Assembly (NCBI RefSeq): GCF_900167415.1
Contig: NZ_FUWU01000011.1
Location: forward strand, 1 to 64,000
Reading direction: 5' to 3'
DNA: 64,000 bases
Origin: Fibrobacter intestinalis
Lineage (GTDB): Bacteria; Fibrobacterota; Fibrobacteria; Fibrobacterales; Fibrobacteraceae
The notes beneath the pieces were generated by a model, which ran no database searches, was not told the origin of the DNA, and saw only the letters and a program-made list of their open reading frames with translations. Below are positions 10,719-24,383 of this stretch, piece by piece. Each line of letters begins with the position of its first letter. The first letter of the stretch is position 1. The translations under genes and the position numbers were made by a program.

Positions 10719-11804
10719 ATGTTGAAAAATGAATTTCAGTTTGCCGGAGTCGGCGTTTCTCCCTGTACGGTGCTTTCTCCTATGGCCGGCGTGACCGACG
10801 CTCCTTTTCGCCGATTATGTCGGATTTTGTCCGGAAATCGAATGGGACTTCTGGTTTCGGAATTTGTATCGACAGATGGAACTTCGCCGTTTGTTTTGAA
10901 AAATCGCAAACAGCTCCATTTTTACCCGGAAGAACGCCCCTTTGGAATTCAAATTTTTGGCCGGGATCCGGAGCGGATGGCTTATGCGGCTCAAGTTCTT
11001 GAATCTTTGCGGCCCGATTACATTGAAGTCAATGCGGGCTGTCCTGTTCCAAAAGTCGCTGGGAAGGGTGGAGGCGCGGGGCTTTTAAAGGACTTGCCGC
11101 GACTGGCCAAAATTCTTTCGGAAGTCAAAAAGGCGATAGCGATTCCGATGACGCTCAAATGTCGTGTCGGCTGGGATGAAAATTCCATCAATGTCATGGA
11201 AACTTTGAAAATTGCAGAAGTGGAAGGGGCTGATATGCTGACGGTCCATGGCAGAACACGAGTGCAGGGGTATAACGGTTTTGCGGACTGGAACTTGATT
11301 GGCGAAGTTGCTGCTGCGGCAAGGATTCCTGTGGTCGGCAACGGCGATGTTTCCAGCGTTCAATCCGCTCTTGAAAAATTGGAAAAATATGCGATTAGCG
11401 GAGTTTCCATTGGACGAGGAGCTTTGCACAATCCGTGGCTTTTTGGTGAAATTGCGGACGCATTAGAAGGCAAACCTGCGCGGGATGTGTCCGCACAAGA
11501 AGCTTGTGGTATTTTCAAAATTTATTACGAATTGATGGCGGAAGAATGCGAATCTTCGCCTTTTGGAATGCTTGGGCGATTGAAACAGCTGGCGGCCAGA
11601 CTATGCAAGGGCTTTGAACCGGACTCGTCGGAATTTCGGCAGCGGGTATTGACAAGCCAGAGCTTAGAAGAGCTTTTTGAAAATGCGGACAGGTTTGCAG
11701 AATTTGCGCAAAGCAACGGAATACGCTTTAATCCTTCGCGCTTGGTTAATTTGAACGGTCGCAAGGAAAATTCGGTTTCGTTTGACAGGCAATTCAAAGG
11801 CTGA
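10719..11804 (+). CDS. dusB: tRNA-dihydrouridine synthase (DusB-like)
   Basis: 361 residues from the ATG at 10719; the longer frame back to 10599 would overlap the HU start and adds a non-family leader. FMN-dependent TIM-barrel enzyme reducing uridines in the tRNA D-loop. Visible motifs: LSPMAGVTDAPFRRLC at 19-34, NAGCPVPKVAGKGGGAGLLKD with catalytic Cys108, TVHGRTRVQGYNGFADW, and GNGDVSS plus SIGRGALHNPW for FMN phosphate binding. It ends 11 bases inside the convergent allophanate hydrolase gene, so the two stop codons overlap on opposite strands with no room for a terminator between them. Confidence 0.87.
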   Translation: MLKNEFQFAGVGVSPCTVLSPMAGVTDAPFRRLCRILSGNRMGLLVSEFVSTDGTSPFVLKNRKQLHFYPEERPFGIQIFGRDPERMAYAAQVLESLRPDYIEVNAGCPVPKVAGKGGGAGLLKDLPRLAKILSEVKKAIAIPMTLKCRVGWDENSINVMETLKIAEVEGADMLTVHGRTRVQGYNGFADWNLIGEVAAAARIPVVGNGDVSSVQSALEKLEKYAISGVSIGRGALHNPWLFGEIADALEGKPARDVSAQEACGIFKIYYELMAEECESSPFGMLGRLKQLAARLCKGFEPDSSEFRQRVLTSQSLEELFENADRFAEFAQSNGIRFNPSRLVNLNGRKENSVSFDRQFKG

Positions 11805-13497
11805 GGAAATACTTTCGCCAGTCGCCAAATTCGGAAATATTCTTGCCGATTTTTTGCACTATTGGTTCTCCTAAAAATCCGGAAACTTCCGTTCCGTTTT
11901 CCAAGCGGATTTTCCCGATGCTGAGTGGCGCGGGGATCTGGGAAATAAATTTTCCGAATTCTTCCGCTGGGAGCGCGTAGAGCTCTACATGGAAGGAACT
12001 TCCGCCTTTTTCCGCACGGACGAGTGCTGGTTTGGGAATGTTCCCAGGAAGGGCGAACATGGTGTATTCCGCAGCAGTTTTTTGGGTCCCTAGAAATTCG
12101 GCGTCTTCGAGTTCCCCATGAAGAGGCATTCCCTGTAGATGCGCTCCGCAAACAGCAATCGCCATTTTGGGCGCTAGGAACGAACGGAGCTTTTCTGCGG
12201 CGGAGAAAAGGACATTTTCCGCGAAGGCTTTACCGACGAGAGTGACACCGAATGGCAACTTCCCCGCAAATCCCACAGGAATGGCTAGCGCCGAAAAGTC
12301 GAGGAGATTCATGTAGTTTGTATAGTATCCGAGATTCGAGTTGAGGCGGATCGGATCGGCTTCGACTTCGGCTGTCTTGTAGCAGGTGCCGACGGTTGGC
12401 GTCATAAGAAAATCGACTTGATCCATCTCCCGGTCGGCAAGAGCTTTTGCGTGGCGCAGTTTGTGAAATGCGTCGAAGATTTGCGACGGATGCGGCGTTG
12501 ATGGAGGAATAATAATTTTGCGTGTCACGGGATGAATTTGTGCGGAATGCTCTTCGATGAATTTTCCGACAGCGGAATACCGTTCAAAAACCCAAGGTCC
12601 TTCGTACAAGAGTCGAGCCGCTTCGAGAAAAGGTTTAAAATGGATTCGTCGCATTTTTCCGCCGGCTTTTTCCGCAGCTGTGATGGAGTCTTCGAAGAGT
12701 TTCCGATAATTTTCGTTTCCAAAAAAATTAAGTTCCGATTCTTCGGGAACGCCGAACGTCCAATTTCCCGGAAGGTGCGCCAAGTTTTCAGGAGCTTTTC
12801 GCGAATAATCGTCGTCTTCGTCATAGCCTTTTGCAATTTCGAGAAGCCGCTTTGCATCGCTTAAATTGAGCGCAAAGAGAGAAACGCAGTCAAGACTTCG
12901 GCATGCGGGGACGACTCCTTTTGTGCTTAAAAGTCCACAAGTCGGTTTCACGCCATAAAGATTGTTGAATGCCGCAGGGACGCGCCCGGAACCTGCCGTG
13001 TCCGTTCCGAGGGAAAAAGAGCAAAGTCCATAGGCGAGTGCTGCTGCGGATCCGCTGCTAGATCCTCCAGAAATGTATTCGGGAGCGAATCGGTTGGGGA
13101 TTGCGCCGTAGGGAGTACGCACTCCGACAAGACCTGTGGCGAATTGATCCATATTTGTCTTGCCGAGGGGAATGGCTCCTGCGCGAATGAGCTTGCCCAC
13201 GACGGTTGCGGAACGGTTTGGGGTGTAGGCGAATGCTGGGCAGCCGGCTGTCGTTTCGCAGTTTTCGAGGTCGATGTTGTCCTTGATGGCGAAGGGAATT
13301 CCGTAGAGCGGAAGATCGCGGGGAGATTTCAAATGCAGGTTTTTCAGATAGCGGGAAAGGGATTCGTCGGAAGTATGCGAAATCCAAATGGAAGCCGGCG
13401 CTTCAGCGATTTTTTTCTTTAATTCGGTTATAACTTTTTCGGGAGTCGTGGATCCATCGCGATAGGCAGAAAGCAATGAGCGGATGTCTAGTTTCAT
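11794..13497 (-). CDS. atzF: Allophanate hydrolase
   Basis: 567 residues. It hydrolyses allophanate to ammonia and CO2, the last step after urea or guanidine carboxylation. The N-terminal amidase-signature domain has Lys72 (PFAIKDN), the GGSSSGS serine (about 147) and the nucleophile Ser170 in DTAGSGRVPA, giving the Ser-cisSer-Lys triad. The C-terminal domain from about 445 (AVCGAHLQGMPLHGEL, ending GEPIVQKIGKNISEFGDWRKY) matches the separate C-terminal domain of AtzF/DUR1,2-type allophanate hydrolases. ATG 13497 was chosen for the AAGAGG just upstream; the frame extends further only through the operator. A perfect palindrome at 13511-13535 sits immediately upstream. It lies downstream of the ROK gene on the same strand, opposite the carboxylase operon. 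Confidence 0.92.
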   Translation of the reverse strand: MKLDIRSLLSAYRDGSTTPEKVITELKKKIAEAPASIWISHTSDESLSRYLKNLHLKSPRDLPLYGIPFAIKDNIDLENCETTAGCPAFAYTPNRSATVVGKLIRAGAIPLGKTNMDQFATGLVGVRTPYGAIPNRFAPEYISGGSSSGSAAALAYGLCSFSLGTDTAGSGRVPAAFNNLYGVKPTCGLLSTKGVVPACRSLDCVSLFALNLSDAKRLLEIAKGYDEDDDYSRKAPENLAHLPGNWTFGVPEESELNFFGNENYRKLFEDSITAAEKAGGKMRRIHFKPFLEAARLLYEGPWVFERYSAVGKFIEEHSAQIHPVTRKIIIPPSTPHPSQIFDAFHKLRHAKALADREMDQVDFLMTPTVGTCYKTAEVEADPIRLNSNLGYYTNYMNLLDFSALAIPVGFAGKLPFGVTLVGKAFAENVLFSAAEKLRSFLAPKMAIAVCGAHLQGMPLHGELEDAEFLGTQKTAAEYTMFALPGNIPKPALVRAEKGGSSFHVELYALPAEEFGKFISQIPAPLSIGKIRLENGTEVSGFLGEPIVQKIGKNISEFGDWRKYFLSL

Positions 13498-13510: not shown

Positions 13511-13535
13511 ACTTTATAAAAACCTTTTATAAAGT
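13511..13535. promoter_or_regulatory. Palindromic operator in front of allophanate hydrolase
   Basis: Perfect inverted repeat: arms ACTTTATAAAA (13511-13521) and TTTTATAAAGT (13525-13535), 3-base spacer. It lies 14 bases upstream of the allophanate hydrolase start, touching its ribosome-binding site, so a bound protein would block transcription or initiation. The same half-site recurs at 14677-14699 and 14767-14793. The ROK regulator encoded next door is the obvious candidate ligand. Confidence 0.8.
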
Positions 13536-13636
13536 AGTTTTGCGGAGAGAAAAAATAAAGAGAAATGCAAAAAAAATCGATCCAAAAATGTGAATCGATT
13601 TTCAAATTCGTTCAAAAATGTTGAAACAAGCCCCGA

Positions 13637-14632
13637 TCAGATTTTTAAAAGCCTTTGAATGGATAGTTGCGCAATTCCGGCAAAGTATTCTTCTTGCGTA
13701 TTCGGCTGGATGAGGAGCTTGGGCAATTTTGATTTAGCGAATCGCATTTGCAAACGTTTTTCAAAGTTCAGCTTTTTTAGATCTTCCGAGAGGCAGCCGG
13801 TGAGAAGAATGACTGCGGGGTCGAAGAAGACGATTGTCGCTTGGACGACTTGCAAGATGCCGGGCAGTGCTCGCTTTGTGTTGTCGAAAAATCGCCGCTG
13901 GCTCCCTTTGGGAAAGGGGAAGGGGAAATAGGAAAGTTCGCCGGAAAGACTCGAATGTCCGCGGACGATATTCCCATCGACGAGAAATCCTCCGGCAGGC
14001 GGGTTGCCTTTTGGAAAAAAGAGAATGGCTATGTCTTTTTCGTTTTGGTTTACACGCGAGTAGCCTAGTGCGATGGAATTCATGTCGTTTTCGACGAAGA
14101 CGGGAATTTTGAGCGCGCTTTCTAATTCGCTTTGGACTGCGCGCCCGTCTAATTCGGGGAAATCGCTAAAGGCGACGATTCCTTCGTGGATGCAGCCTTG
14201 AACGCCGAGGGTGACGAGTCGGATGGCCGGATTCTTTTTCAAAATTCCCATTGCCATTTTTTTCAAGGTGGGAAGATTCACTTGGTGGACGAGGGAGGAA
14301 CCTTGGCTGTGCGTTTTTTCAGAGACATCGACAACTCTGTAGTAGATTTTTTCCGTACCATTCTCGGAAATGGCGAGAAGGCTGAGAAATTGCGTTTTCT
14401 CGGCGCAGTAGCGGTAAGCTTGTGCCGGGCGTCCTCCATTGGAGAGTCGGAGGTTTTCCGCTACAGCGTCTCCGGATTTGGCCATTTCGTTTAGCAGGTT
14501 TCCGCAAGTGGCGACAGTCAATCCCGTGCGTTTGGCGATTTCGGGTTTTGTCGCAGAACCGAGCGCAATGAGTGCCCGTTTGATTTGCAAAATGTTTTGC
14601 TGTTTGATTTTTATAATGGAATTGGAGGACAT
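13637..14632 (-). CDS. ROK-family transcriptional regulator of the guanidine/urea locus
   Basis: 331 residues. The N-terminal winged-helix domain (KQQNILQIKRALIALGSATKPEIAKRTGLTVATCGNLLNEM) is the NagC/XylR type. The ROK domain follows with VFVENDMNSIALGY, GGFLVDGNIVRGHSSLSGELSYF and a C-terminal helix-strand block. The CxCGxxGC zinc motif usual after the GE(L/I)xH segment is absent, and the glycine-rich phosphate loop of sugar-kinase ROKs is not seen, so sugar phosphorylation is unlikely. ROK regulators normally sense sugars; here the gene stands between allophanate hydrolase and the transporter-carboxylase operon and three matching palindromes surround it. I infer it is the local regulator, autoregulated through the site at 14677. 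The ligand is unknown and could be guanidine, urea or a pathway intermediate. Confidence 0.8.
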   Translation of the reverse strand: MSSNSIIKIKQQNILQIKRALIALGSATKPEIAKRTGLTVATCGNLLNEMAKSGDAVAENLRLSNGGRPAQAYRYCAEKTQFLSLLAISENGTEKIYYRVVDVSEKTHSQGSSLVHQVNLPTLKKMAMGILKKNPAIRLVTLGVQGCIHEGIVAFSDFPELDGRAVQSELESALKIPVFVENDMNSIALGYSRVNQNEKDIAILFFPKGNPPAGGFLVDGNIVRGHSSLSGELSYFPFPFPKGSQRRFFDNTKRALPGILQVVQATIVFFDPAVILLTGCLSEDLKKLNFEKRLQMRFAKSKLPKLLIQPNTQEEYFAGIAQLSIQRLLKI

Positions 14633-14676
14633 CTTGGTTAAAAGATAAATTCAAATTTTAACGTAATGAGAAAAAT

Positions 14677-14699
14677 CTTTATAAAAATGTTTTACAAAG
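14677..14699. promoter_or_regulatory. Near-palindromic operator in front of the ROK gene
   Basis: Arms CTTTATAAAA (14677-14686) and TTTTACAAAG (14690-14699), 3-base spacer, one mismatch between arms. It is the weakest of the three copies and lies 45 bases upstream of the ROK start codon, which suits moderate autoregulation. Confidence 0.65.
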
Positions 14700-14766
14700 T
14701 ATGCTTGATTTCTGGGAAAACGACGAAAAAGGGCTAAAATGTTTTTTCTCTCTACAAATCTGTCGG

Positions 14767-14793
14767 GACTTTATAAAAAGTTTTTATAAAGTC
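14767..14793. promoter_or_regulatory. Palindromic operator in front of the ABC transporter-carboxylase operon
   Basis: Perfect 13-bp inverted repeat: GACTTTATAAAAA (14767-14779), one central G, TTTTTATAAAGTC (14781-14793). It lies about 110 bases upstream of the substrate-binding protein start. The half-site core CTTTATAAAA is the same as at 13511 and 14677, though the centre is 1 base rather than 3. No guanidine-I riboswitch signature is visible between here and 14903. Confidence 0.8.
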
Positions 14794-14902
14794 GGAGTGA
14801 AAAAAATAAAAAGCGGCGAAATTCGTTGAAAAAACGGAAACTTTTCGATTTTGGCATTGCTTTTGCTTTGTGGACTGCAAAAACTCTTCACGCGAGGTAC
14901 TT

Positions 14903-15886
14903 ATGAAAATGCCAAAAATCCTTCTTGCCGCGGCCATGGGTCTTGCGGCGACACTTTACGCTGAAAAGCCGGTCTTGAAAATTGCTTATAGCGATTGGCC
15001 AGGCTGGACTGCTTGGGAAATTGCCGACAAAAAGGGATTTTTCAAGAAGCACGACGTGAATGTAAAACTCGAATGGTTCGAATATGGGCCGTCTATGGAT
15101 GCTTTTGCCGCGAAGAAAGTCGATGCGGTTGGAGTGGCGAATGGCGATGCGATGGTCTTGAATGCAACGGGTGCACGGAACGTGACGATTTTGATAAATG
15201 ACTATAGTAACGGAAATGATAAAATTGTTGGAGCTCCGGGAATTTCTTCCATCAAGGATTTAAAAGGGAAGAAAGTCGGCGTGGAAATCGGTTGCCTTTC
15301 CCATGCACTTCTCATCAACGCCCTTTTGAAGAATGGTCTCAAGGAATCGGACGTGACTCTGGTGAACATGCCGACTCACCAAGCGCTCCAAACTTTGGAA
15401 AGTGGCGAAGTCTCGGCAGTTGTTGCCTGGGTTCCGCATTCCGTAAATGCGCTTGAGAAGGTGACGGGTTCCAAGGAGCTTTATACGAGTGCTGACGAAC
15501 CGGGCATTATCTATGATGTCTTGGCCGTTTCGCAAGAATCGCTGATGAAGTACAAGGACGAATGGATGAAAGTCGTTGCTGCGTGGGACGATGTGGTCGC
15601 CTACATGAATGATCCTAAAAACAAGAAGGAAATGGTCAAAATCCTGGCGGATCGCGTTGGTGTTCCGGAATCGCAATATGCGAAGTTTATCGGCGGAACG
15701 CGTTTCTTGCGGCTGAACGAATCGATCAAATTCTTCAACAAGAAGGATTCTTCTTACGGGTCGATTTACGGTTCGAGTAAACGAGTCGATGAATTCTTTG
15801 TGAAGAACAAAGTCTATGACAAACACGTTGATGTGAACCGCTATATCAATCCTTCGTTCACAGAAAAGCTCGTTAACGGAAAGTAG
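14903..15886 (+). CDS. ABC transporter substrate-binding protein (SsuA/NMT1-like), probably for guanidine or urea
   Basis: 327 residues. Signal peptide about 1-19 (ILLAAAMGLAATLYA). The mature protein follows the nitrate/sulfonate/taurine binding-protein plan: LKIAYSDWPGWTAWEIADKKG near the start, FGPSMDAF-like segment EYGPSMDAFAAKKVDAVGVANGD, ISSIKDLKGKKVGVEIGCLSH, and a C-terminal helical lobe. ATG 14903 follows GCGAGG at a good distance. It is the first gene of an eight-gene unit; the permease follows after 29 bases. Proteins of this family commonly accompany UAAP1/UAAP2 and urea/guanidine carboxylase genes, which is the basis for the substrate guess. Confidence 0.82.
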   Translation: MKMPKILLAAAMGLAATLYAEKPVLKIAYSDWPGWTAWEIADKKGFFKKHDVNVKLEWFEYGPSMDAFAAKKVDAVGVANGDAMVLNATGARNVTILINDYSNGNDKIVGAPGISSIKDLKGKKVGVEIGCLSHALLINALLKNGLKESDVTLVNMPTHQALQTLESGEVSAVVAWVPHSVNALEKVTGSKELYTSADEPGIIYDVLAVSQESLMKYKDEWMKVVAAWDDVVAYMNDPKNKKEMVKILADRVGVPESQYAKFIGGTRFLRLNESIKFFNKKDSSYGSIYGSSKRVDEFFVKNKVYDKHVDVNRYINPSFTEKLVNGK

Positions 15887-15915
15887 AAAAGACAAATTAA
15901 CCCGGGACGTAAAAC

Positions 15916-16980
15916 ATGAACTGTCCAATTGGAATACGAAAGGAAGCCGGGAAGCGCGGAAGAATAATTTTGGCCATTCTTTCGTTCGCCTTGCCGCTCG
16001 CGCTTTGGTGTGCGGTAAGCTATATCCCGTTTATTTATCATCCGCTGATTCAAATAACGGATGCGGGCGGAAGTATGTTTTGCGAACCGGGCGATGAAAT
16101 CGCCAGAGAAAATTTTGAGGAAGAGAGTGCGAACTTGCTTGCAGAGGGAGAGGCTCCGATGAAAGGCGTGCGCGTGAATCCCGCTTATCTACCGGCTCCC
16201 CATTCTGTAGCGAAAGCGCTGGTGACCGCTTTCCGCACGCCGCCGAAACGCGATGGGGACGTCTGGTTTTACGAAAGTATTTTGCATTCGATAAAAATCG
16301 TTTTCCTAGCGTTTTTCCTTTCGAGTCTTGTCGGACTTCCTCTTGGCATTCTCAGCGGTTCCATTCCTTTTGTGGAAAGGCTGACCGCTCCCTTTATCGA
16401 GTTTTTTCGGTATTTTCCAGCTCCGGTTTTTGGGGCGCTCGCTGTCGCTGTTCTCGGCATTAACGATGCCCCGAAAATCGCAATTATCATTATTGGAACT
16501 TTTTTTCAACAAGTTCCGATGCTATCCGCAACGACGCGTCATGCGGATCCGGCTTTGACAGAAGCGGCGCGGACTTTGGGTGCGTCTCCTTTACGCGTGC
16601 TGATAAAAGTCATTATTCCAGAAATTGCGCCGAAAATTTACAAGGATATGCGAATCCTGCTCGGTTGGGCTTGGACGTATTTGATTGTCGCGGAAGTAGT
16701 CGGTACGAGTTCCGGCATTACCTGGTTCATTAATCAACAAGCGAAGTATCGGAATTTCGATAACGTTTATGCGGCGATTGTCATTTTAGGAATCATCGGA
16801 CTCGGTTGCGATCTTGTTCTTTCAAGAATAGGAAAGGACTTGTTCGCTTGGGAAGATGGGCGCGTGAGTTTCCTCGTGAAATTGCGTCGGGAACTAACCG
16901 CTCCAAAGAACTACGTATTTTCCTTTCGCTTGACAGAAGCGGAAAAAGAATTGAAGGAAAAGAATAATGGAAAACTTTGA
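15916..16980 (+). CDS. ABC transporter permease (SsuC/TauC-like)
   Basis: 354 residues. The BPD_transp_1 domain covers about 115-300 with several membrane helices and the EAA loop [24 protein letters not shown] that docks on the ATPase. Between the first helix (about 19-40) and the core lies a hydrophilic stretch of about 75 residues, longer than usual and presumably periplasmic. The C-terminal 40 residues are charged and cytoplasmic. The gene overlaps the ATPase gene by 14 bases, supporting a single complex. Confidence 0.85.
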
Positions 16981-17806
16981 TTTCATTATTGAAGCGAAAA
17001 ACATCGTGAAAGATTTCGCTGAAAGCGATGGCGGCTTGCGTCGCGTCCTCGACGGAATTTCTTTTGGAGTGAAACGTCGCGAATTTCTTTCGATCATCGG
17101 ACCATCGGGATGTGGAAAGTCAACGCTCATTCGCATTGCTGCCGGTCTTGAAACGGCGACGGACGGATGCTTTTTGTTGGACGGCAAGAAGGTTTCCGGT
17201 ACGGGAGCCGAGCGAGGAATGGTGTTCCAAAAATACACGCTTTTCCCTTGGCTTTCGGTGAAGCAAAACGTGATGTTCGGGCTTGAATCGTCGGGATTCG
17301 GGAAGGATGAAGCGGAAGAAACGGCGAGGCAATGGCTGGAAATCGTCGGGCTTGACAGGTATTCGGAATACTATCCGAAGCAACTTTCGGGTGGTATGCA
17401 ACAACGTGTCGCCATTGCCCGTGCGCTTGCCCCGCAACCTCGAGTTCTTTTGATGGACGAACCTTTTGGCGCTCTGGATGCACAAACGCGTTCGCAAATG
17501 CAAAAATATTTGCTCGAAGTCTGGAAGAATATCGACATCACGATTCTTTTTGTGACGCACGATTTGGACGAAGCCGTATTCCTTTCGGACAGGATTCTGA
17601 CTCTCCAGGCAAACCCCGGCAAGGTAAAAGAATTTGTAGAAGTCGATGTGCCGCGTCCGCGGAACGAAGAAAGCCTGTTCCTTCCGCAATTCGTAGAAAC
17701 GCGGAAGTATGTGGAAGACCTGATTCATCCGACGGTGGAAAACAAGGTTCCCGTGGAAACGTTTAACATCGTGAACATGGTCGGAAAGAAAAACTCGACC
17801 AAGTAA
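16967..17806 (+). CDS. ABC transporter ATP-binding protein (SsuB/TauB-like)
   Basis: 279 residues. Walker [10 protein letters not shown] at 45-53, Q-loop region [12 protein letters not shown], signature LSGGMQQR, Walker [14 protein letters not shown] and the switch His in FVTHDLDEA are all intact. The C-terminal extension of about 40 residues after the nucleotide-binding domain is typical of the nitrate/sulfonate/taurine ATPases. It powers import through the preceding permease. A 36-base gap with AAGAGG leads to the UAAP1 gene. Confidence 0.9.
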
Positions 17807-17842
17807 AATTCACCAACAAAATTCCAACAAGAGGTAAATACT

Positions 17843-18559
17843 ATGGAAAACGAAAAAGTTTTGACTTCAAAAACGATTGCGGGTGGCTGGAACTATTCCC
17901 GCATTGTGAAACGCGGTCAGAAAATCCGACTTACAGATTTGGAAGGCGGCGCAAACGCTTCGCTCCTTTGCTACAACGCAAAGAATTTTACGGAACGCTT
18001 TAACTTGGGCGATTCTTTGAAAATTCAACATGTCTGTCGCATTGCCGAGAATTGCTGCCTTTACAGCGATATGGGACGCATTCTTTTAAGCGTTGTCAAG
18101 GATACAGTCGGCTGGCATGATCCGCTTTGCGGTTGTACGCACGCGAACTTGATCAAGGAACGCTTTGGTGAGCACGACTATCAACATTATCAAAATGATT
18201 TTTTCCGAAATGGTTACGATTCCCTTTTGGTGGAAATCGGCAAATATGGAATGACCAAGCGCGATTTTACGGAACTCGTGAACTTCTTCTCGAAAGTCGT
18301 GGTGACATCGGACGGCAAGATGACGTTTGTCGAAAACAATTCAAAACCCGGCGATTATGTGGAACTACGCGCCGAAATGGATACGCTTGTCGTTATCGAC
18401 ACGGGAATGCACCCGCTGAATCCATCGAAGGAATATCTGCGGAAGCCGGTCAAGGTGGAACTCTTGCCTTGCGAATTTTCGGTGGCAGATGATCCATGCT
18501 TCATCTGGTGCCCAGAAAATGGTCGTGGGTTTGCCAACACGGCAGATTACAATCTTTAA
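17843..18559 (+). CDS. Urea carboxylase-associated protein UAAP1 (DUF1989), carboxyguanidine deiminase subunit
   Basis: 238 residues. DUF1989 family. Motifs typical of UAAP1: GGWNYSRIVKRGQKIRLTDLEGGANASLLCYNA near the start, YSDMGRILLSVVKDTVGWHDPLCGCTH at about 72-98, YGMTKRDFTELVNFFSKV, and a final MHPLNPSKEYLRKPVKVEL. It lacks the QLNNPCNxYNPTP block of its two downstream paralogues. In characterised guanidine loci, UAAP1 and UAAP2 proteins form the heteromeric carboxyguanidine deiminase (CgdAB) that yields allophanate and ammonia; before that discovery they were only called urea-amidolyase-associated. Which of CgdA and CgdB this is I leave open. The Cys and His of the GWHDPLCGCTH segment are plausible metal ligands. 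Confidence 0.85.
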   Translation: MENEKVLTSKTIAGGWNYSRIVKRGQKIRLTDLEGGANASLLCYNAKNFTERFNLGDSLKIQHVCRIAENCCLYSDMGRILLSVVKDTVGWHDPLCGCTHANLIKERFGEHDYQHYQNDFFRNGYDSLLVEIGKYGMTKRDFTELVNFFSKVVVTSDGKMTFVENNSKPGDYVELRAEMDTLVVIDTGMHPLNPSKEYLRKPVKVELLPCEFSVADDPCFIWCPENGRGFANTADYNL

Positions 18560-18574
18560 AAGGATGGTTTCAAA

Positions 18575-19228
18575 ATGGTGACGAAATATTTGGAAAGCTC
18601 CCTTCGGGAAGAAGACGCCGTCTATTCGGAAGATGTGCCTGCAGGCGAAGGCTGGATGCACTTAATTAAAAAAGGCCAGATTTTCCGCATTTTGGATCTC
18701 GAAGGAAATCAGGCCGTTGATACGCTATTCATCAGCGCTACAAATCCAGAAGAACGCTACAGTGTGCAGCAAACTGTGCAACGTCAGGCGAATTGTTTGG
18801 TGGGTGTCGGCACGAAGCTCTATTCAAATGACGACAATCCGATGCTTACCGTTATTGCGGATACCTGCGGCGATCACGATACGCTAGGGAGCGCATGCTC
18901 TTGCGAAAGCAACACTTGCCGCTATGCTTTGGACAAACGTTATATGCACGCATGCCGTGAATCGTTTCTCAAGGTTTTGCTTGCGAAGCCTGGATTTGAT
19001 AAGCGAGATCAAGTGAACAATTTGAACTTTTTCATGTACGTTCCCTTTGATGAACAGGGAAATTTGAATTTCGCAGATGGCATTTCGAGCCCGGGAAAGT
19101 ATGTGGAAATGAAAGCGGAAATGGATGTGTATGCCGTTGTGAGCAATTGTCCGCAACTGAACAATCCCTGTAACGCGTATAACCCGACTCCGGTGAGAAT
19201 GCTCATCTGGGACGAGGAGGATCTATGA
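18575..19228 (+). CDS. Urea carboxylase-associated protein UAAP2 (DUF1989), first copy
   Basis: 217 residues. Same fold as the UAAP1 protein but of UAAP2 type: KKGQIFRILDLEGNQAVDTL, SNDDNPMLTVIADTCGDHDT followed by LGSACSCESNTCRYALDKRYMHACRES, FADGISSPGKYVEM, and CPQLNNPCNAYNPTPVRMLIW. This copy follows the textbook UAAP2 pattern more closely than the next one, so it is the better candidate for the deiminase partner of UAAP1. It carries an unusually dense set of cysteines in 105-125. AAAGGATGG precedes the ATG. Its stop overlaps the next start (ATGA). Confidence 0.85.
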   Translation: MVTKYLESSLREEDAVYSEDVPAGEGWMHLIKKGQIFRILDLEGNQAVDTLFISATNPEERYSVQQTVQRQANCLVGVGTKLYSNDDNPMLTVIADTCGDHDTLGSACSCESNTCRYALDKRYMHACRESFLKVLLAKPGFDKRDQVNNLNFFMYVPFDEQGNLNFADGISSPGKYVEMKAEMDVYAVVSNCPQLNNPCNAYNPTPVRMLIWDEEDL

Positions 19229-19860
19229 AGCTGAAAGAAAGCGATCGGAAATTGGAAGAAGCGGTCTATGATGTGACCGTTTATGCGGGCGAAGGCAAGA
19301 TGCTCCCGCTTCGGAAGGGCCAGGTTCTTCGGCTGATCGATGTGGAAGGAAATCAGTCTGGAGACATTCAAATTTACAACGCCCACGATACGGCAGAACG
19401 TTACAGCGCTCCGAATACGATAACCGCACAAAGGAATACGATGATTGAGGTGGGGACGGTCATCCGTTCCAACGACGACAATCCGATGCTCACCGTGATT
19501 GCGGACACTTGCGGAGAGCATGATACTCTCGGCAGCGGATGCTCTGCCGAAGGAAATGTTGTGCGTTATACGGACAAGACGAGATATATGCACAGTTGTC
19601 GCGACACATTCGTCCGGACTCTTGAAGATTTCGGGATGAGCAAGCGTGATCAGGTCTGCAATTTGAATTTTTTCACAAAGGTCATTTTGGACGACAAAGG
19701 ACGCTTGGAATTTGCGGACGGCATTTCGGGACCGGGAAAGTATATCGAAATGCGCGCGGACATGGATGTTCTTTTTTTGCTTTCGGATTGCGCGCAATTA
19801 AACAATCCGTGCAATGATTACAACCCGACTCCCATCCGGATGGTCGTTTTCGATGCGTGA
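19225..19860 (+). CDS. UAAP2 paralogue (DUF1989), second copy
   Basis: 211 residues, roughly half identical to the preceding protein by eye and so a tandem duplicate. It keeps SNDDNPMLTVIADTCGEHDT, RYMHSCRDTF, FADGISGPGKYIEM and CAQLNNPCNDYNPTPIRM. It differs in the Cys-rich stretch (GSGCSAEGNVVRYTDK), having lost two cysteines, and in DIQIYNAHDTAERYS. GAGGAGG gives a strong ribosome-binding site. Typical loci have one UAAP1 and one UAAP2; this second UAAP2 is extra and may replace, extend or retune the complex. Confidence 0.83.
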   Translation: MKLKESDRKLEEAVYDVTVYAGEGKMLPLRKGQVLRLIDVEGNQSGDIQIYNAHDTAERYSAPNTITAQRNTMIEVGTVIRSNDDNPMLTVIADTCGEHDTLGSGCSAEGNVVRYTDKTRYMHSCRDTFVRTLEDFGMSKRDQVCNLNFFTKVILDDKGRLEFADGISGPGKYIEMRADMDVLFLLSDCAQLNNPCNDYNPTPIRMVVFDA

Positions 19861-20680
19861 AATTATCTATAGAGAATTTTCCCAAGAAGATTTGGACGCT
19901 GCATACGACAATACGCGTGCAGTTTTTGAAAGTGCAAAAATCTTGGAAGGATTTGAAGTGCGCAGCGCAGAAATTGCCGCAGCGTTTCCGGACACGATGG
20001 ATATTCCGTACGGAACGCTTCCGCGTGAGAAAATAGACTATTTTCCGGGAAATCCAGGAAGTCCGATTCTTGTCTTTATCCACGGCGGGTATTGGCAAAT
20101 GCGGCGAAAGGAAACTTTTCGTTTTTTGGCGAAGGGGCCGCTTTCTTTGGGTTTCCATGTGGCATCGGTTGGCTATACTCTCGCACCGAATGCATCGCTG
20201 CCGGAAATTGTCCAAGAAATCCGTTCTGCGTTGGATTTTCTTCGTAAGAATGCGGGACGTTTCGCCGCCGATGTCTCCCGGATATTTGTTTCGGGATGGT
20301 CCGCCGGGGCGCATCTAGCCGTTTCCGTTCTCTCCGAGAAAAATGTGTGCGGCGCTCTCGCTATCAGCGGCATTTACGATCTGCTTCCGATTTCCAAGTC
20401 GTATTTGAATAAATCTCTGTCCCTTTCGGAGTGCGAAATCCAAAACTTGAGCCCGATGCGTTCCCCTTGCATTGCAAAGCCCGTTGTCGTCGCTTGCGGT
20501 GCGGATGAACTTCCGGAACTCCGGCGTCAAAGCTTGGAATTTGCAGAGTTGCGATCCCATGAACGAATCCCCGGCTATTTTGCCGAATTGCCCGGCAAAA
20601 ATCATTTTTCCATTCTCGAGGAGCTAGAAAATCCGAATGGCATTTTAACTCTTCTGTTGAGAATTCTCTCCGTTTCTTAA
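19853..20680 (+). CDS. Alpha/beta hydrolase, kynurenine-formamidase-like
   Basis: 275 residues. N-terminal REFSQEDLDAAYDN is typical of the arylformamidase-type hydrolases. The oxyanion motif HGGYW is at 77-81, the nucleophile elbow GWSAGAH has Ser150, the acid is probably the Asp in CGADELPE and the His is in GKNHFSIL. The start overlaps the UAAP2 stop by 8 bases (ATGCGTGA), so the enzyme is made together with the deiminase. It sits between the deiminase and the carboxylase genes, which suggests it acts on an amide or carbamoyl compound of the same pathway. No tryptophan-degradation gene is nearby, so the kynurenine label should not be taken as function. Confidence 0.75.
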   Translation: MREIIYREFSQEDLDAAYDNTRAVFESAKILEGFEVRSAEIAAAFPDTMDIPYGTLPREKIDYFPGNPGSPILVFIHGGYWQMRRKETFRFLAKGPLSLGFHVASVGYTLAPNASLPEIVQEIRSALDFLRKNAGRFAADVSRIFVSGWSAGAHLAVSVLSEKNVCGALAISGIYDLLPISKSYLNKSLSLSECEIQNLSPMRSPCIAKPVVVACGADELPELRRQSLEFAELRSHERIPGYFAELPGKNHFSILEELENPNGILTLLLRILSVS

Positions 20681-20707
20681 AAAGTTTTCATTATTCAAGG
20701 AGTTTGT

Positions 20708-23700
20708 ATGTTTCGCAAAGTTCTGATTGCCAATCGAGGCGAAATTGCGTGCCGAGTGATCCGTACGTTGAAAACGATGGGAATCCAATCCGTTGCCGTC
20801 TATTCGGATCCAGACGAATCTGCGGCACACGTTCTGATGGCGGACGAAGCGGTTTGCATCGGGCCTGCTGCAGCCAAGGAAAGCTATCTGAATGTGCCAG
20901 CCATTTTGAAAGCGATTAAAAAGACTGGAGCCGAAGCGGTGCATCCGGGCTATGGATTCCTTAGTGAAAATGCGGATTTTGCGAAGGCTCTAGAAGAAAA
21001 TGGAGTCTCGTTTATTGGACCGACTCCGAAACAGCTTGTGGAATTTGGCATGAAGCATCGCAGCAAGGAACTTGCCGAGAAATTCGGCGTTCCCCTGGTT
21101 CCCGGAACAGGTCTTTTAAAAGACATTGAAGATGCGATTCGTGGTGCAGATGAAATCGGCTATCCGGTAATGTTGAAAAGTACGGCGGGTGGTGGTGGCA
21201 TCGGCATGACGATTTGCCGTTCCGAAGAAGACCTGCGAAATAGCTTTGACAAAATTCGACATTTAAGCGAAAATAACTTTAAGGACTCTGGACTTTTCGT
21301 CGAAAAGTATGTGGAACGCGGTCGCCATGTTGAAGTGCAGATTTTTGGGGATGGCGAAGGAAATGCCGTTGTTCTCGGTGAACGCGATTGCTCTGTGCAA
21401 AGGCGCAACCAGAAAGTCGTCGAAGAAACTCCGGCTCCGAATCTGCCGGAAATGACGCGTGAAGCTTTGCACGCTGCAGCATTGCGATTGGTTCAAGGAG
21501 TCAAGTACCGTTCTGCGGGAACCGTAGAATTTATCTACGATGCGAAAAATGACAAGTTCTATTTTCTGGAAGTGAATACCCGCTTACAGGTGGAACACGG
21601 AGTGACTGAAACCGTGTTCAATGTTGATCTTGTTCGCTGGATGATCGAGCAGGCTGCGGGAATCCGCCCGTTTGAAATCGGACAGAAATTTGCCCCTCAA
21701 GGGCATGCGATGGAGTTTCGTGTTTATGCGGAAGACCCCGGCAAAAATTACCGCCCTTCGAGCGGTCTTTTGACGGAAGTCTCATTCCCGGAAGGCGTGC
21801 GCATTGATACCTGGGTTTTGCGCGGGACAGACGTTAGCGCATTCTACGATCCGCTTCTGGCGAAGGTTATTGTCGCTGGCAAGGATCGGAACGAAAATAT
21901 CGAAAGGGCGAAATTGGCTCTTGCGAAAGTGCGACTCTGCGGATTTGAAACAAATATCAAGCTTTTGAAAGATGTTCTTGAAATGGCCGCTTTTGTCACG
22001 GGAAATGTTTCTACTTGGATTCTGAACGATTATCAATACAAGAATCGCACGTTCGAAATTCTCGCACCGGGCCTCCAAACGACTGTCCAAGATTATCCGG
22101 GTCGCTTGAAACTATGGGATGTTGGCATTCCACCTTCTGGCCCGATGGACAATTACAGTTTCCGCTTGGCGAATAAAATTGTCGGCAATGCGGAAGGCGC
22201 TGCCGGTATTGAAATGACGATTTCCGGTTGCTCGGTGTGCTTTCATACGGAAACGGTTATCGCTTGGACGGGCGGCGATTTTCCGGCGAAACTGAATGAA
22301 CAGGCGTGTCCGAAAAATGCTCCGGTCAAAATTTCGGTAGGCGATGTTCTGAAATTCGGCATGACGAAATGTGGCAACCGCGCTTATTTGGCAATTCGAG
22401 GTGGCATTGACGTGCCGGATTATCTGGGCAGCAAATCGACGTTTACGCTAGGCGGTTTTGGCGGCCATGGCGGTCGCGCTCTTTCGGCGGGCGATATTCT
22501 CCATATTGGAAACGACATGGATGGACATCCGGTTAACCCCTCTCCGAAGGCGATTCCTGAACTGACTTCCGAATGGAATATCGGCGTGATATATGGTCCG
22601 CATGGCGCTCCGGATTATTTGACGGAAAAGGATATCGAAGAATTTTTCGGTGCGACTTGGGAAGTGCATTACAACTCGTCGCGGACTGGCATCCGCTTGA
22701 TTGGACCGCAACCGAAGTGGGCTCGCCCGGACGGCGGGGATGCGGGCCTGCATCCTTCGAATTTGCATGATAACGCGTATGCCGTCGGAACTGTCGATTT
22801 TACGGGAGATATGCCGATAATTCTCGGTGTCGATGGACCAAGTCTCGGCGGTTTCGCATGCCCGGTGACTATCGTTTCAGCGGAACTTTGGAAAATGGGT
22901 CAGCTGAAGAGTGGAGACAAAGTTCATTTTGTTCCCATTTCCGTGGAAAAAGCAGAAGAAATCCGGTTGGCCCGGGAAGCGAATTTGCAAAATCCGGAAA
23001 AGGCCTCTGCAGAAATTCCTGCTCTCGAAGCCGTGCCGGTGACGACACCCATTATTGCCGAATTTCACAAAGAAAACGAGATGGAGCGCATTGTCGTCCG
23101 CGCCGATGGCGACGACTATTTGCTGCTCGAATTCGGACCCGCGGTAATTGACTTGCGGCTCCGTTTCACGGCGCATGCCTGGATGCTTGCCGTAAAAGAT
23201 CGGATGCAGGATTTCGTTATCGATGTAACGCCCGGCATTCGTTCCATCCAGATTCATTATGACATCAGGAAGATTCGCCAAGGCGAAGTTCTAAAAATTC
23301 TCAAGGAACTTTCGGAACATTTGAAAAAGAACAAGGTGACGAAGGTCCCGACAAGAACGGTTTATTTGCCGCTTTCTTGGGATGATCCGCAGACTCGCAT
23401 CGCCATTGAAAAATATGTGACAACAGTTCGCCCCGGCGCGCCTTGGTGCTGCCCGAACAACATCGAGTTCATCCGCCGCGTAAATGGACTCGATTCGATT
23501 GAAGACGTCAAGAAAATCGTTTTCGATGCGGACTACCTCGTCATGGGGCTTGGCGATGTCTATTTGGGTGCGCCTGTCGCGACTCCTCTCGATCCGCGAC
23601 ATCGCCTGGTGACGACCAAGTACAATCCTGCGCGCACGTGGACTCCGGAAAATGCCGTGGGCATCGGCGGAGCTTACATGTGCGTCTATGGAATGGAAGG

Positions 23701-24310
23701 CCCGGGCGGTTATCAATTTGTAGGAAGAACGGTGCAAATGTGGAACCGGTTCAAAAAGACTGCAGACTTTCCGTTGCCGTATTTGCTGCGCTTTTTTGAC
23801 CAGATTCGCTTTTACGAAGTTTCTGCAGATGATCTTTTGCAGATGCGGAAGGATTTCGTCGCGGGTAAGTTCCATGTCAAAATCGAGGAAAGTTCGTTCG
23901 ACATCACGGAATACGAGAATTTTCTCGCGGACAACGCTCAATCGATTGCCGCTTTTGAAATCAAGCGGAAAACGGCTTTTGAAGAGGAAAAGGAACGCTG
24001 GATTCGCACGGGGCAATTCACCTTTGAAATCCACAGTGCCGAATCGGCTCCTGTTGCCGAGGTGACGCTTTCCGAAGGCGAAGAAGGTGTCTATTCGCCG
24101 GTCGCCGGAAGCCTGTGGAAACTTGTCGTCAGCGAAGCCGGGAAGCGTGTCAAGGCTGGCGAGACTCTGGCTGTCCTTGAAAGCATGAAGACGGAAATCC
24201 CCGTTGTCGCGGACGAAGATGTCGTCGTTTCGCAGGTCTTTGCGAAGCCCTCGATGGAAGTGCGTTCCGGCCAGTGTCTGTTTGCTGTTAAACCTTCGCC
24301 GTGTTCTTAA
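20708..24310 (+). CDS. Biotin-dependent guanidine/urea carboxylase
   Basis: 1200 residues, a complete single-chain enzyme. Biotin carboxylase domain 1-450 (VLIANRGEIACRVIRT, the ATP loop KSTAGGGGIGM, LEVNTRLQVEHGVTE). Carboxyltransferase domain, with its two KipA/KipI-like halves, about 455-1090 (QDYPGRLKLWDVGIPPSGPMD; GGHGGRALSAGD; HPSNLHDNAYAVGTV; YGMEGPGGYQFVGRT). Biotin carrier domain at the C-terminus with LESMKTEI and biotinyl Lys1161. Asp697 in the VDFTGD motif takes the place of an Asn (NFTGD) seen in yeast-type urea carboxylases; as I recall, Asp here (Asn1330 in the K. lactis enzyme) marks guanidine carboxylases. It has no fused allophanate hydrolase, which is encoded at 11794. AGGAG precedes the ATG. 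Confidence 0.88.
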   Translation: MFRKVLIANRGEIACRVIRTLKTMGIQSVAVYSDPDESAAHVLMADEAVCIGPAAAKESYLNVPAILKAIKKTGAEAVHPGYGFLSENADFAKALEENGVSFIGPTPKQLVEFGMKHRSKELAEKFGVPLVPGTGLLKDIEDAIRGADEIGYPVMLKSTAGGGGIGMTICRSEEDLRNSFDKIRHLSENNFKDSGLFVEKYVERGRHVEVQIFGDGEGNAVVLGERDCSVQRRNQKVVEETPAPNLPEMTREALHAAALRLVQGVKYRSAGTVEFIYDAKNDKFYFLEVNTRLQVEHGVTETVFNVDLVRWMIEQAAGIRPFEIGQKFAPQGHAMEFRVYAEDPGKNYRPSSGLLTEVSFPEGVRIDTWVLRGTDVSAFYDPLLAKVIVAGKDRNENIERAKLALAKVRLCGFETNIKLLKDVLEMAAFVTGNVSTWILNDYQYKNRTFEILAPGLQTTVQDYPGRLKLWDVGIPPSGPMDNYSFRLANKIVGNAEGAAGIEMTISGCSVCFHTETVIAWTGGDFPAKLNEQACPKNAPVKISVGDVLKFGMTKCGNRAYLAIRGGIDVPDYLGSKSTFTLGGFGGHGGRALSAGDILHIGNDMDGHPVNPSPKAIPELTSEWNIGVIYGPHGAPDYLTEKDIEEFFGATWEVHYNSSRTGIRLIGPQPKWARPDGGDAGLHPSNLHDNAYAVGTVDFTGDMPIILGVDGPSLGGFACPVTIVSAELWKMGQLKSGDKVHFVPISVEKAEEIRLAREANLQNPEKASAEIPALEAVPVTTPIIAEFHKENEMERIVVRADGDDYLLLEFGPAVIDLRLRFTAHAWMLAVKDRMQDFVIDVTPGIRSIQIHYDIRKIRQGEVLKILKELSEHLKKNKVTKVPTRTVYLPLSWDDPQTRIAIEKYVTTVRPGAPWCCPNNIEFIRRVNGLDSIEDVKKIVFDADYLVMGLGDVYLGAPVATPLDPRHRLVTTKYNPARTWTPENAVGIGGAYMCVYGMEGPGGYQFVGRTVQMWNRFKKTADFPLPYLLRFFDQIRFYEVSADDLLQMRKDFVAGKFHVKIEESSFDITEYENFLADNAQSIAAFEIKRKTAFEEEKERWIRTGQFTFEIHSAESAPVAEVTLSEGEEGVYSPVAGSLWKLVVSEAGKRVKAGETLAVLESMKTEIPVVADEDVVVSQVFAKPSMEVRSGQCLFAVKPSPCS

Positions 24311-24342: not shown

Positions 24343-24383
24343 AAAAATCCTTGAAAAAGTCGTGAGCTTTTTCAAGGATTTTT
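24343..24383. terminator. Bidirectional terminator between the carboxylase and the porin-lipoprotein pair
   Basis: Perfect 17-bp stem: AAAAATCCTTGAAAAAG (24343-24359), 7-base loop, CTTTTTCAAGGATTTTT (24367-24383). A-run and T-run flank it on both sides, so it can stop transcripts from both strands. It ends the eight-gene nitrogen operon (plus) and the lipoprotein transcript (minus). Confidence 0.9.

Follow-up and report, generated by a model that had tools for sequence, protein, structure and literature searches.

In Paenibacillus, the ROK repressor XylR recognizes a 25-bp site of the form ACTTAGTTT-N7-AGACAAAGT (PMC9104551), and in Corynebacterium glutamicum the ROK-type regulators CysR and SsuR respond to effectors that are not sugars (PMC2580772). 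Guanidine carboxylase operons elsewhere are controlled by guanidine riboswitches (PMC12186494). The guanidine carboxylases themselves are recognized by aspartates at the positions equivalent to 1330 and 1584 of the K. lactis protein, and the pairs of DUF1989 proteins are the subunits CgdA and CgdB of carboxyguanidine deiminase (PMC11410670). NtrC/sigma-54 regulons that include 'urea carboxylase' genes have been described in Burkholderia cenocepacia (PMC5491218) and for the proteobacterial COG3665 (PMC12316311). According to a 2025 review, no protein is known that senses guanidine to control genes.

The locus analysed here, whose features are collected in Table 1, lies in a stretch of 64,000 nucleotides of Fibrobacter intestinalis DNA (hereafter the window). 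It carries three matching palindromes, O1, O2 and O3, which with high likelihood, judging from the sequences compared below, are the binding sites of one local regulator of a guanidine-use gene cluster.

Table 1. Predicted regulatory sites and genes of the locus, numbered as in the window
Feature	Position	Strand	Description
Allophanate hydrolase	11794..13497	-	TIGR02713 671.9 bits (cut-off 511); ATG at 13497
Operator O1 (predicted)	13511..13535		ACTTTATAAAA-ACC-TTTTATAAAGT; perfect 11-bp arms
Terminator-like hairpin and T-run after ROK	13572..13603	-	Match to the consensus only; 2 found as against 2.3 expected by chance
ROK-family regulator, 331 aa	13637..14632	-	Winged helix and SxGGR linker; ROK domain degenerate
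Operator O2 (predicted)	14676..14700 (arms 14677-14699)		CTTTATAAAA-ATG-TTTTACAAAG; arms 9/10
Operator O3 (predicted)	14767..14793		GACTTTATAAAAA-G-TTTTTATAAAGTC; perfect 13-bp arms
Sigma-54 promoter	14851..14866	+	TTGGCATTGCTTTTGC; GG 14853-14854, 10 bases, GC 14865-14866
Transporter-carboxylase operon	14903-24310	+	ABC transporter through carboxylase
Periplasmic substrate-binding protein	14903..15886	+	NMT1/SsuA-like; weak likeness to urea-carboxylase-associated TIGR03427
ABC transporter permease	15916..16980	+	Family models
ABC transporter ATPase	16967..17806	+	Family models
DUF1989/UAAP1, carboxyguanidine deiminase subunit type	17843..18559	+	TIGR03425 301.6 bits (cut-off 206)
DUF1989/UAAP2, carboxyguanidine deiminase subunit type	18575..19228	+	TIGR03424 306.7 bits (cut-off 284.7)
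Third DUF1989 paralogue, UAAP2-like	19225..19860	+	Below cut-off (268.1 bits vs 284.7)
Alpha/beta hydrolase	19856..20680	+	Operon member kept in relatives
Guanidine carboxylase (family models: urea carboxylase)	20708..24310	+	Asp697 = K. lactis 1330; Asp at K. lactis 1584

The original prediction had placed three palindromes before allophanate hydrolase, before the ROK gene and before the transporter-carboxylase operon, and all of them are present in the sequence with the arms and coordinates that it gave. Between O1 and the ATG of allophanate hydrolase there are 13 bp, and the palindrome abuts the Shine-Dalgarno sequence of that gene. O2, the ROK-proximal palindrome (the 14677 site), lies 43 bp upstream of the ROK ATG (14632) and is weaker, with 3 mismatches to the 25-bp consensus; O3 (the 14767 site) is the transporter-proximal one. 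The supposition that such a set is improbable by chance is borne out: with up to 3 mismatches, the 25-bp pattern matches three places in the window as against 0.00 in 100 shuffles, and in the 3.29-Mb genome it matches three places, all at the locus, the reversed control pattern matching none. The genome search for the consensus that had been suggested thus returned no copy elsewhere, and a wider regulon was rejected for want of a fourth site within 3 mismatches. Scored with a matrix of 17 sites, the three window sites reach 34.3, 33.2 and 28.2 bits, values that are partly circular because the matrix includes these same sites; the next-best place in the window scores 8.6 bits, and 60 simulated 64-kb sequences never gave more than 12.4. 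Perfect 10-bp arms separated by 0-8 bp occur at four places in the window, of which two are these palindromes.

The consensus of the 17 sites is ACTTtaTAAAA-N3-TTTTataAAGT. Across a comparison set of 60 genomes, all 15 sites with 0-1 mismatch lie at the ROK/allophanate hydrolase/transporter locus, and at 3 mismatches the number of sites away from it resembles that of the reversed control. Two such outlying candidates were discarded, a 2-mismatch site inside a long open reading frame of G001 (L054:2838) and a 3-mismatch site of G021 that is not at a guanidine gene (L055:7684). Close orthologues of the ROK protein, 41-49% identical, are found in five relatives of the genus and three of the family, and the proposed comparison of orthologous intergenic regions reveals the consensus in all eight, one or two palindromes adjoining ROK and often allophanate hydrolase as well. 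Together with the confinement of the consensus to the locus, this recurrence supports the local regulon that had been predicted. Seven of the 11 arm pairs are invariant or vary once among the 17 sites, and the 3-bp centre varies freely in sequence and is constant in length. Because the substitutions in one half-site (positions 9/25 and 10/24) are uncompensated in the other arm, the palindromes appear to be DNA operators and not RNA hairpins.

The arrangement of the sites follows that of the genes. The position of O1 is conserved in G001-G005 and also before the allophanate hydrolase of G017, a 94%-complete assembly in which the site has 1 mismatch and neither ROK nor carboxylase was found. In the genus relatives a single site, some 34-39 bp before the ROK start codon, serves both distances in the divergent ROK/transporter gap; in the window genome this gap is longer and holds two sites, one near each promoter. 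ROK and allophanate hydrolase stand about 18 bp apart in G033, with no site between them, whereas the larger gap of G000-G005 contains one. G021 has lost both the carboxylase and allophanate hydrolase and retains ROK with a 1-mismatch site upstream. In G025 the site is weak (3 mismatches), and at allophanate hydrolase, which has moved elsewhere in that genome, no more than a degenerate copy is present; G017 and G025 thus count against ROK as the binder. The ROK protein evolves fast (46-49% identity within the genus, L046-L050) in comparison with the transporter and the carboxylase (80-90%), and the operator is nearly unchanged.

The neighbouring genes had been correctly recognized as allophanate hydrolase, ROK and a transporter-carboxylase operon; the carboxylase, however, is of the guanidine type. 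This 1200-residue biotin carboxylase possesses both signature aspartates, that at 1330 being shared, in the alignment, by 8/8 family members having the gene, and by these residues it is a guanidine carboxylase and not a urea carboxylase. By family models, the same cluster also encodes the two carboxyguanidine deiminase subunits together with allophanate hydrolase. The signature residues and the DUF1989 pair thus identify a guanidine carboxylase pathway provided with an importer. The earlier reading overlooked this specificity as well as the sigma-54 promoter discussed below, and both alter the purpose of the regulon. Other features of the operon deserve mention. Three DUF1989 genes stand in tandem (17843-19860) instead of the usual pair, and the third, UAAP2-like, was found in every relative whose operon could be read. 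The alpha/beta hydrolase resembles hormone-sensitive lipase and is conserved in the guanidine operon. A perfect palindrome, CTTGAAAAAGTCGTGAGCTTTTTCAAG, at 24350-24376 directly after the carboxylase stop codon, is probably the operon terminator. Elsewhere in the same class, other Fibrobacterota (G040-G050) possess guanidine-type carboxylases with Asp at 1330, and the carboxylase of G042 has Asn there, the urea type; the carboxylase loci of G040-G050 contain neither palindrome sites nor an Rfam match. As for riboswitches, no guanidine riboswitch reaches the Rfam gathering score in the window or in seven orthologous loci, the cluster gives none even at E 10, and the guanidine-I class, searched with restricted scoring, was found in 0/60 relatives.

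The candidate regulator is the ROK protein encoded between O1 and O2. Its ROK domain scores above threshold (PF00480, 33.8 bits, cut-off 22.9). Its predicted fold, modelled from 50 sequences with a pLDDT of 91.4, supersedes an earlier model from nine sequences in which the pocket (209-239) stood below 50, and it lies nearest to ROK regulators (Z 24-27), among them Lmo0178, solved on its operator. A winged helix is formed in the model by helices 2-23, 28-35 and 39-52 and strands 55-62 and 68-74. The G65-G66-R67 linker and the residues Asp182 and Glu231 of the former sugar pocket are invariant in the 50 sequences. The set of motifs of ROK sugar kinases and sugar-binding proteins (DxGGT, GTGxG, ExGH, CxCGxxGC) was not found: the kinase (phosphate-binding) motifs, the zinc cysteines and the histidine of ExGH are absent, the latter replaced by Tyr, Phe or Cys, while the glutamate of ExGH and an ENDMN signature are retained. 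Within the family the orthologue occurs in exactly the eight genomes with the carboxylase, that of the window included, and in G021, and nowhere that lacks the palindromes. Since sites adjoin the allophanate hydrolase start, and since one persists beside ROK in G021, which is devoid of the pathway, ROK is the favoured binder. From the co-occurrence, G021 and the predicted fold, we consider it quite probable that the ROK protein binds the palindromes.

Relatives of this protein in the Bacillales (Paenibacillus, Bacillus, Exiguobacterium and others; L078-L152) share the ENDMN signature and are likewise devoid of the zinc motif, which, with DxGGT, is present in 0/69 of them and also absent from the Fibrobacter proteins. 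An MFS-like transporter gene follows that of the ROK protein in most of the seven loci that were read. These proteins form a branch of the ROK family, apparently not described before, with a ligand that may be something other than a sugar. At about 30% identity they have no guanidine genes nearby, and they are thus uninformative on the ligand of the Fibrobacter protein. The hairpin after ROK, if functional, would set allophanate hydrolase apart as a transcription unit of its own; for both genes, the search for sigma-70 promoters gave matches at chance level only.

In front of the transporter gene, the sigma-54 promoter consists of a GG-N10-GC element in a TTGGCA/TTGC context. The element is kept in 8/8 orthologous regions, and the window genome encodes rpoN and five strong enhancer-binding proteins. 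The centre of O3 is 85 bp from the -12 GC in the window, as against 106-108 bp for its counterparts in seven other genomes, a difference of about two helical turns, and the palindrome stands 80-82 bp from the TTGGCA box in seven genomes. The spacers are only 26-40% identical between lineages despite their nearly fixed length. This near-fixed spacing, with its two-turn shift, indicates that the O3 copy seems to be held in phase with the promoter. The sigma-54 pattern occurs six times in the window's genome. One occurrence (G000:C95:11939-11954, L183) precedes a glnB (PII)-like gene with an ammonium-transporter-like gene close by, names that rest on our reading of the sequences, and suggests sigma-54 nitrogen control in Fibrobacter. 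An enhancer-binding protein with GAF and AAA+ domains in a NifA-like layout, encoded directly after a gltD-like gene (G000:C66:13332-13832, L169), is a candidate nitrogen regulator.

The position of O3 would also suit the enhancer site of an activator, and the main alternative is consequently that an NtrC- or NifA-like enhancer-binding protein uses the palindrome as its upstream activating sequence, ROK being a bystander or acting elsewhere. Enhancers usually act from the distance at which O3 and its counterparts are found, about 97-120 bp upstream of where transcription is expected to begin; the spacing of these sites to the promoter is conserved apart from the two-turn shift, and the genome offers rpoN and the five enhancer-binding proteins, including the one after the gltD-like gene. 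This explanation nevertheless seems unlikely to us. Of the sites that it has to account for, O3 is upstream of a sigma-54 promoter, but O1 abuts the ribosome-binding site of allophanate hydrolase with no such promoter between, and the G021 site, retained only with ROK, has none visible beside it. Moreover, the other sigma-54-like promoters of the genome, that of the glnB-like gene included, are devoid of the palindrome (best score -6.7 bits, as against 28-34), and the number of enhancer-binding proteins is similar with or without the cluster, whereas ROK tracks it.

The model we propose, which we regard as probable, is that ROK is a pathway-specific, operator-binding repressor, released by guanidine or an intermediate and layered on sigma-54 nitrogen control. 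A ROK dimer would place one winged helix on each half-site of the 25-bp operator. When the substrate is absent, ROK bound to O1 would block allophanate hydrolase, ROK bound to O2 would limit its own synthesis, and ROK bound to O3 would occupy the place where the sigma-54 activator binds or loops, thereby keeping the import-and-carboxylation operon off. The entry of guanidine, or of an intermediate such as carboxyguanidine or allophanate, into the degenerate sugar-kinase pocket would cause ROK to release the DNA. Even then, transcription of the main operon would depend on the sigma-54 RNA polymerase together with an enhancer-binding protein, the two probably signalling nitrogen shortage, and the promoter would behave as an AND gate that opens when the substrate is present and nitrogen is short. 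The analysis shows the sites with their confinement and conservation, the conserved sigma-54 promoter, the guanidine-type carboxylase and, as a predicted model, the ROK fold; the binding of ROK, the repression, the ligand and the nitrogen signal are what we infer in this scheme.

The identity of the ligand could be otherwise. ROK might repress in response to a sugar or another carbon signal, which would put the cluster under carbon and not substrate control; sugars are the effectors of most ROK repressors (PMC9104551, PMC2580772), and two acidic residues of the sugar pocket, Glu231 and Asp182, do not vary. We judge this improbable, given that the protein has lost its phosphate-binding motifs along with the zinc cysteines and the histidine of ExGH, and that the ROK gene is co-inherited with the guanidine genes. 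As acids, Asp182 and Glu231 could instead hold a guanidinium ion. That ROK binds guanidinium through these two residues, and would thus be the first guanidine-responsive transcription factor and the stand-in for a riboswitch at a sigma-54 promoter, is a tentative proposal, one that we take seriously without holding it for the likelier outcome.

The sign of the regulation could also be reversed, ROK binding its sites as an activator required for full expression in the presence of the substrate, as CysR and SsuR do in Corynebacterium. O3 is indeed upstream, with its helical phase conserved, and activators of the ROK type are known for the use of sulphonate and sulphate (PMC2580772). A protein seated on O1, immediately ahead of the allophanate hydrolase ATG, would however hinder expression and not help it, and this location makes repression the favoured sign. 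Furthermore, sigma-54 promoters require an AAA+ activator, and ROK proteins are not AAA+. We therefore find activation by ROK rather improbable. A role as RNA hairpins, be it as attenuators, leaders or terminators, is hardly credible for the palindromes. Once transcribed, their long perfect arms would base-pair, and O1 would fall within or close to the leader of allophanate hydrolase, but it is the sequence that is conserved and not the pairing, with uncompensated arm changes and a centre that is always 3 bp, there is no Rfam match, and O3 is outside the transporter-carboxylase transcript because it lies upstream of the sigma-54 start.

As a ROK regulator with its operators, the repressor of our model is of a known kind. 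XylR of Bacillus and Paenibacillus, Lmo0178 of Listeria, and Mlc and NagC of E. coli also combine a winged helix and a ROK domain with a Gly/Arg linker, and ROK repressors with palindromic operators are likewise encoded divergently from an adjoining target operon. The site of Paenibacillus XylR even has the 25-bp length and the ACTT...AAGT ends of the Fibrobacter operator, whose inner half-site is TATAA in place of the GTTT of the known system. The differences lie in the target, which is nitrogen (guanidine) catabolism and not sugar catabolism, in the loss of the ExGH histidine and the zinc motif, and in the sigma-54 type of one of the target promoters. CysR and SsuR resemble the Fibrobacter protein as divergent ROK-type regulators of nutrient use, but they govern sulphur metabolism and act largely as activators. 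The search of the open literature (subscription journals lay outside it) found neither a guanidine-linked ROK regulator nor a study of a Fibrobacter urea or guanidine carboxylase, and nothing in the literature searched anticipates the control of guanidine catabolism by a ROK protein at a sigma-54 promoter.

The pathway, for its part, has the same content as the operons under guanidine-I and guanidine-II riboswitches in Raoultella, Klebsiella and Vreelandella (PMC12186494, PMC12508155), with which it shares an ABC importer, carboxyguanidine deiminase genes, a guanidine carboxylase and an allophanate hydrolase. In Fibrobacter, where no guanidine riboswitch was detected, a protein regulator with DNA operators is predicted in its stead. 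Sigma-54 or NtrC control of a similar cluster is known from the 'urea carboxylase' regulons (PMC5491218, PMC12316311), to which Fibrobacter adds a ROK regulator dedicated to the cluster, with palindromes located where an enhancer would be. The existence of guanidine-sensing transcription factors becomes directly testable at this locus, where a named protein and a 25-bp operator are at hand along with three target promoters and, in G021, a natural control genome. The locus also illustrates how nitrogen control through sigma-54 and control by the substrate may come together in a gut cellulose degrader.
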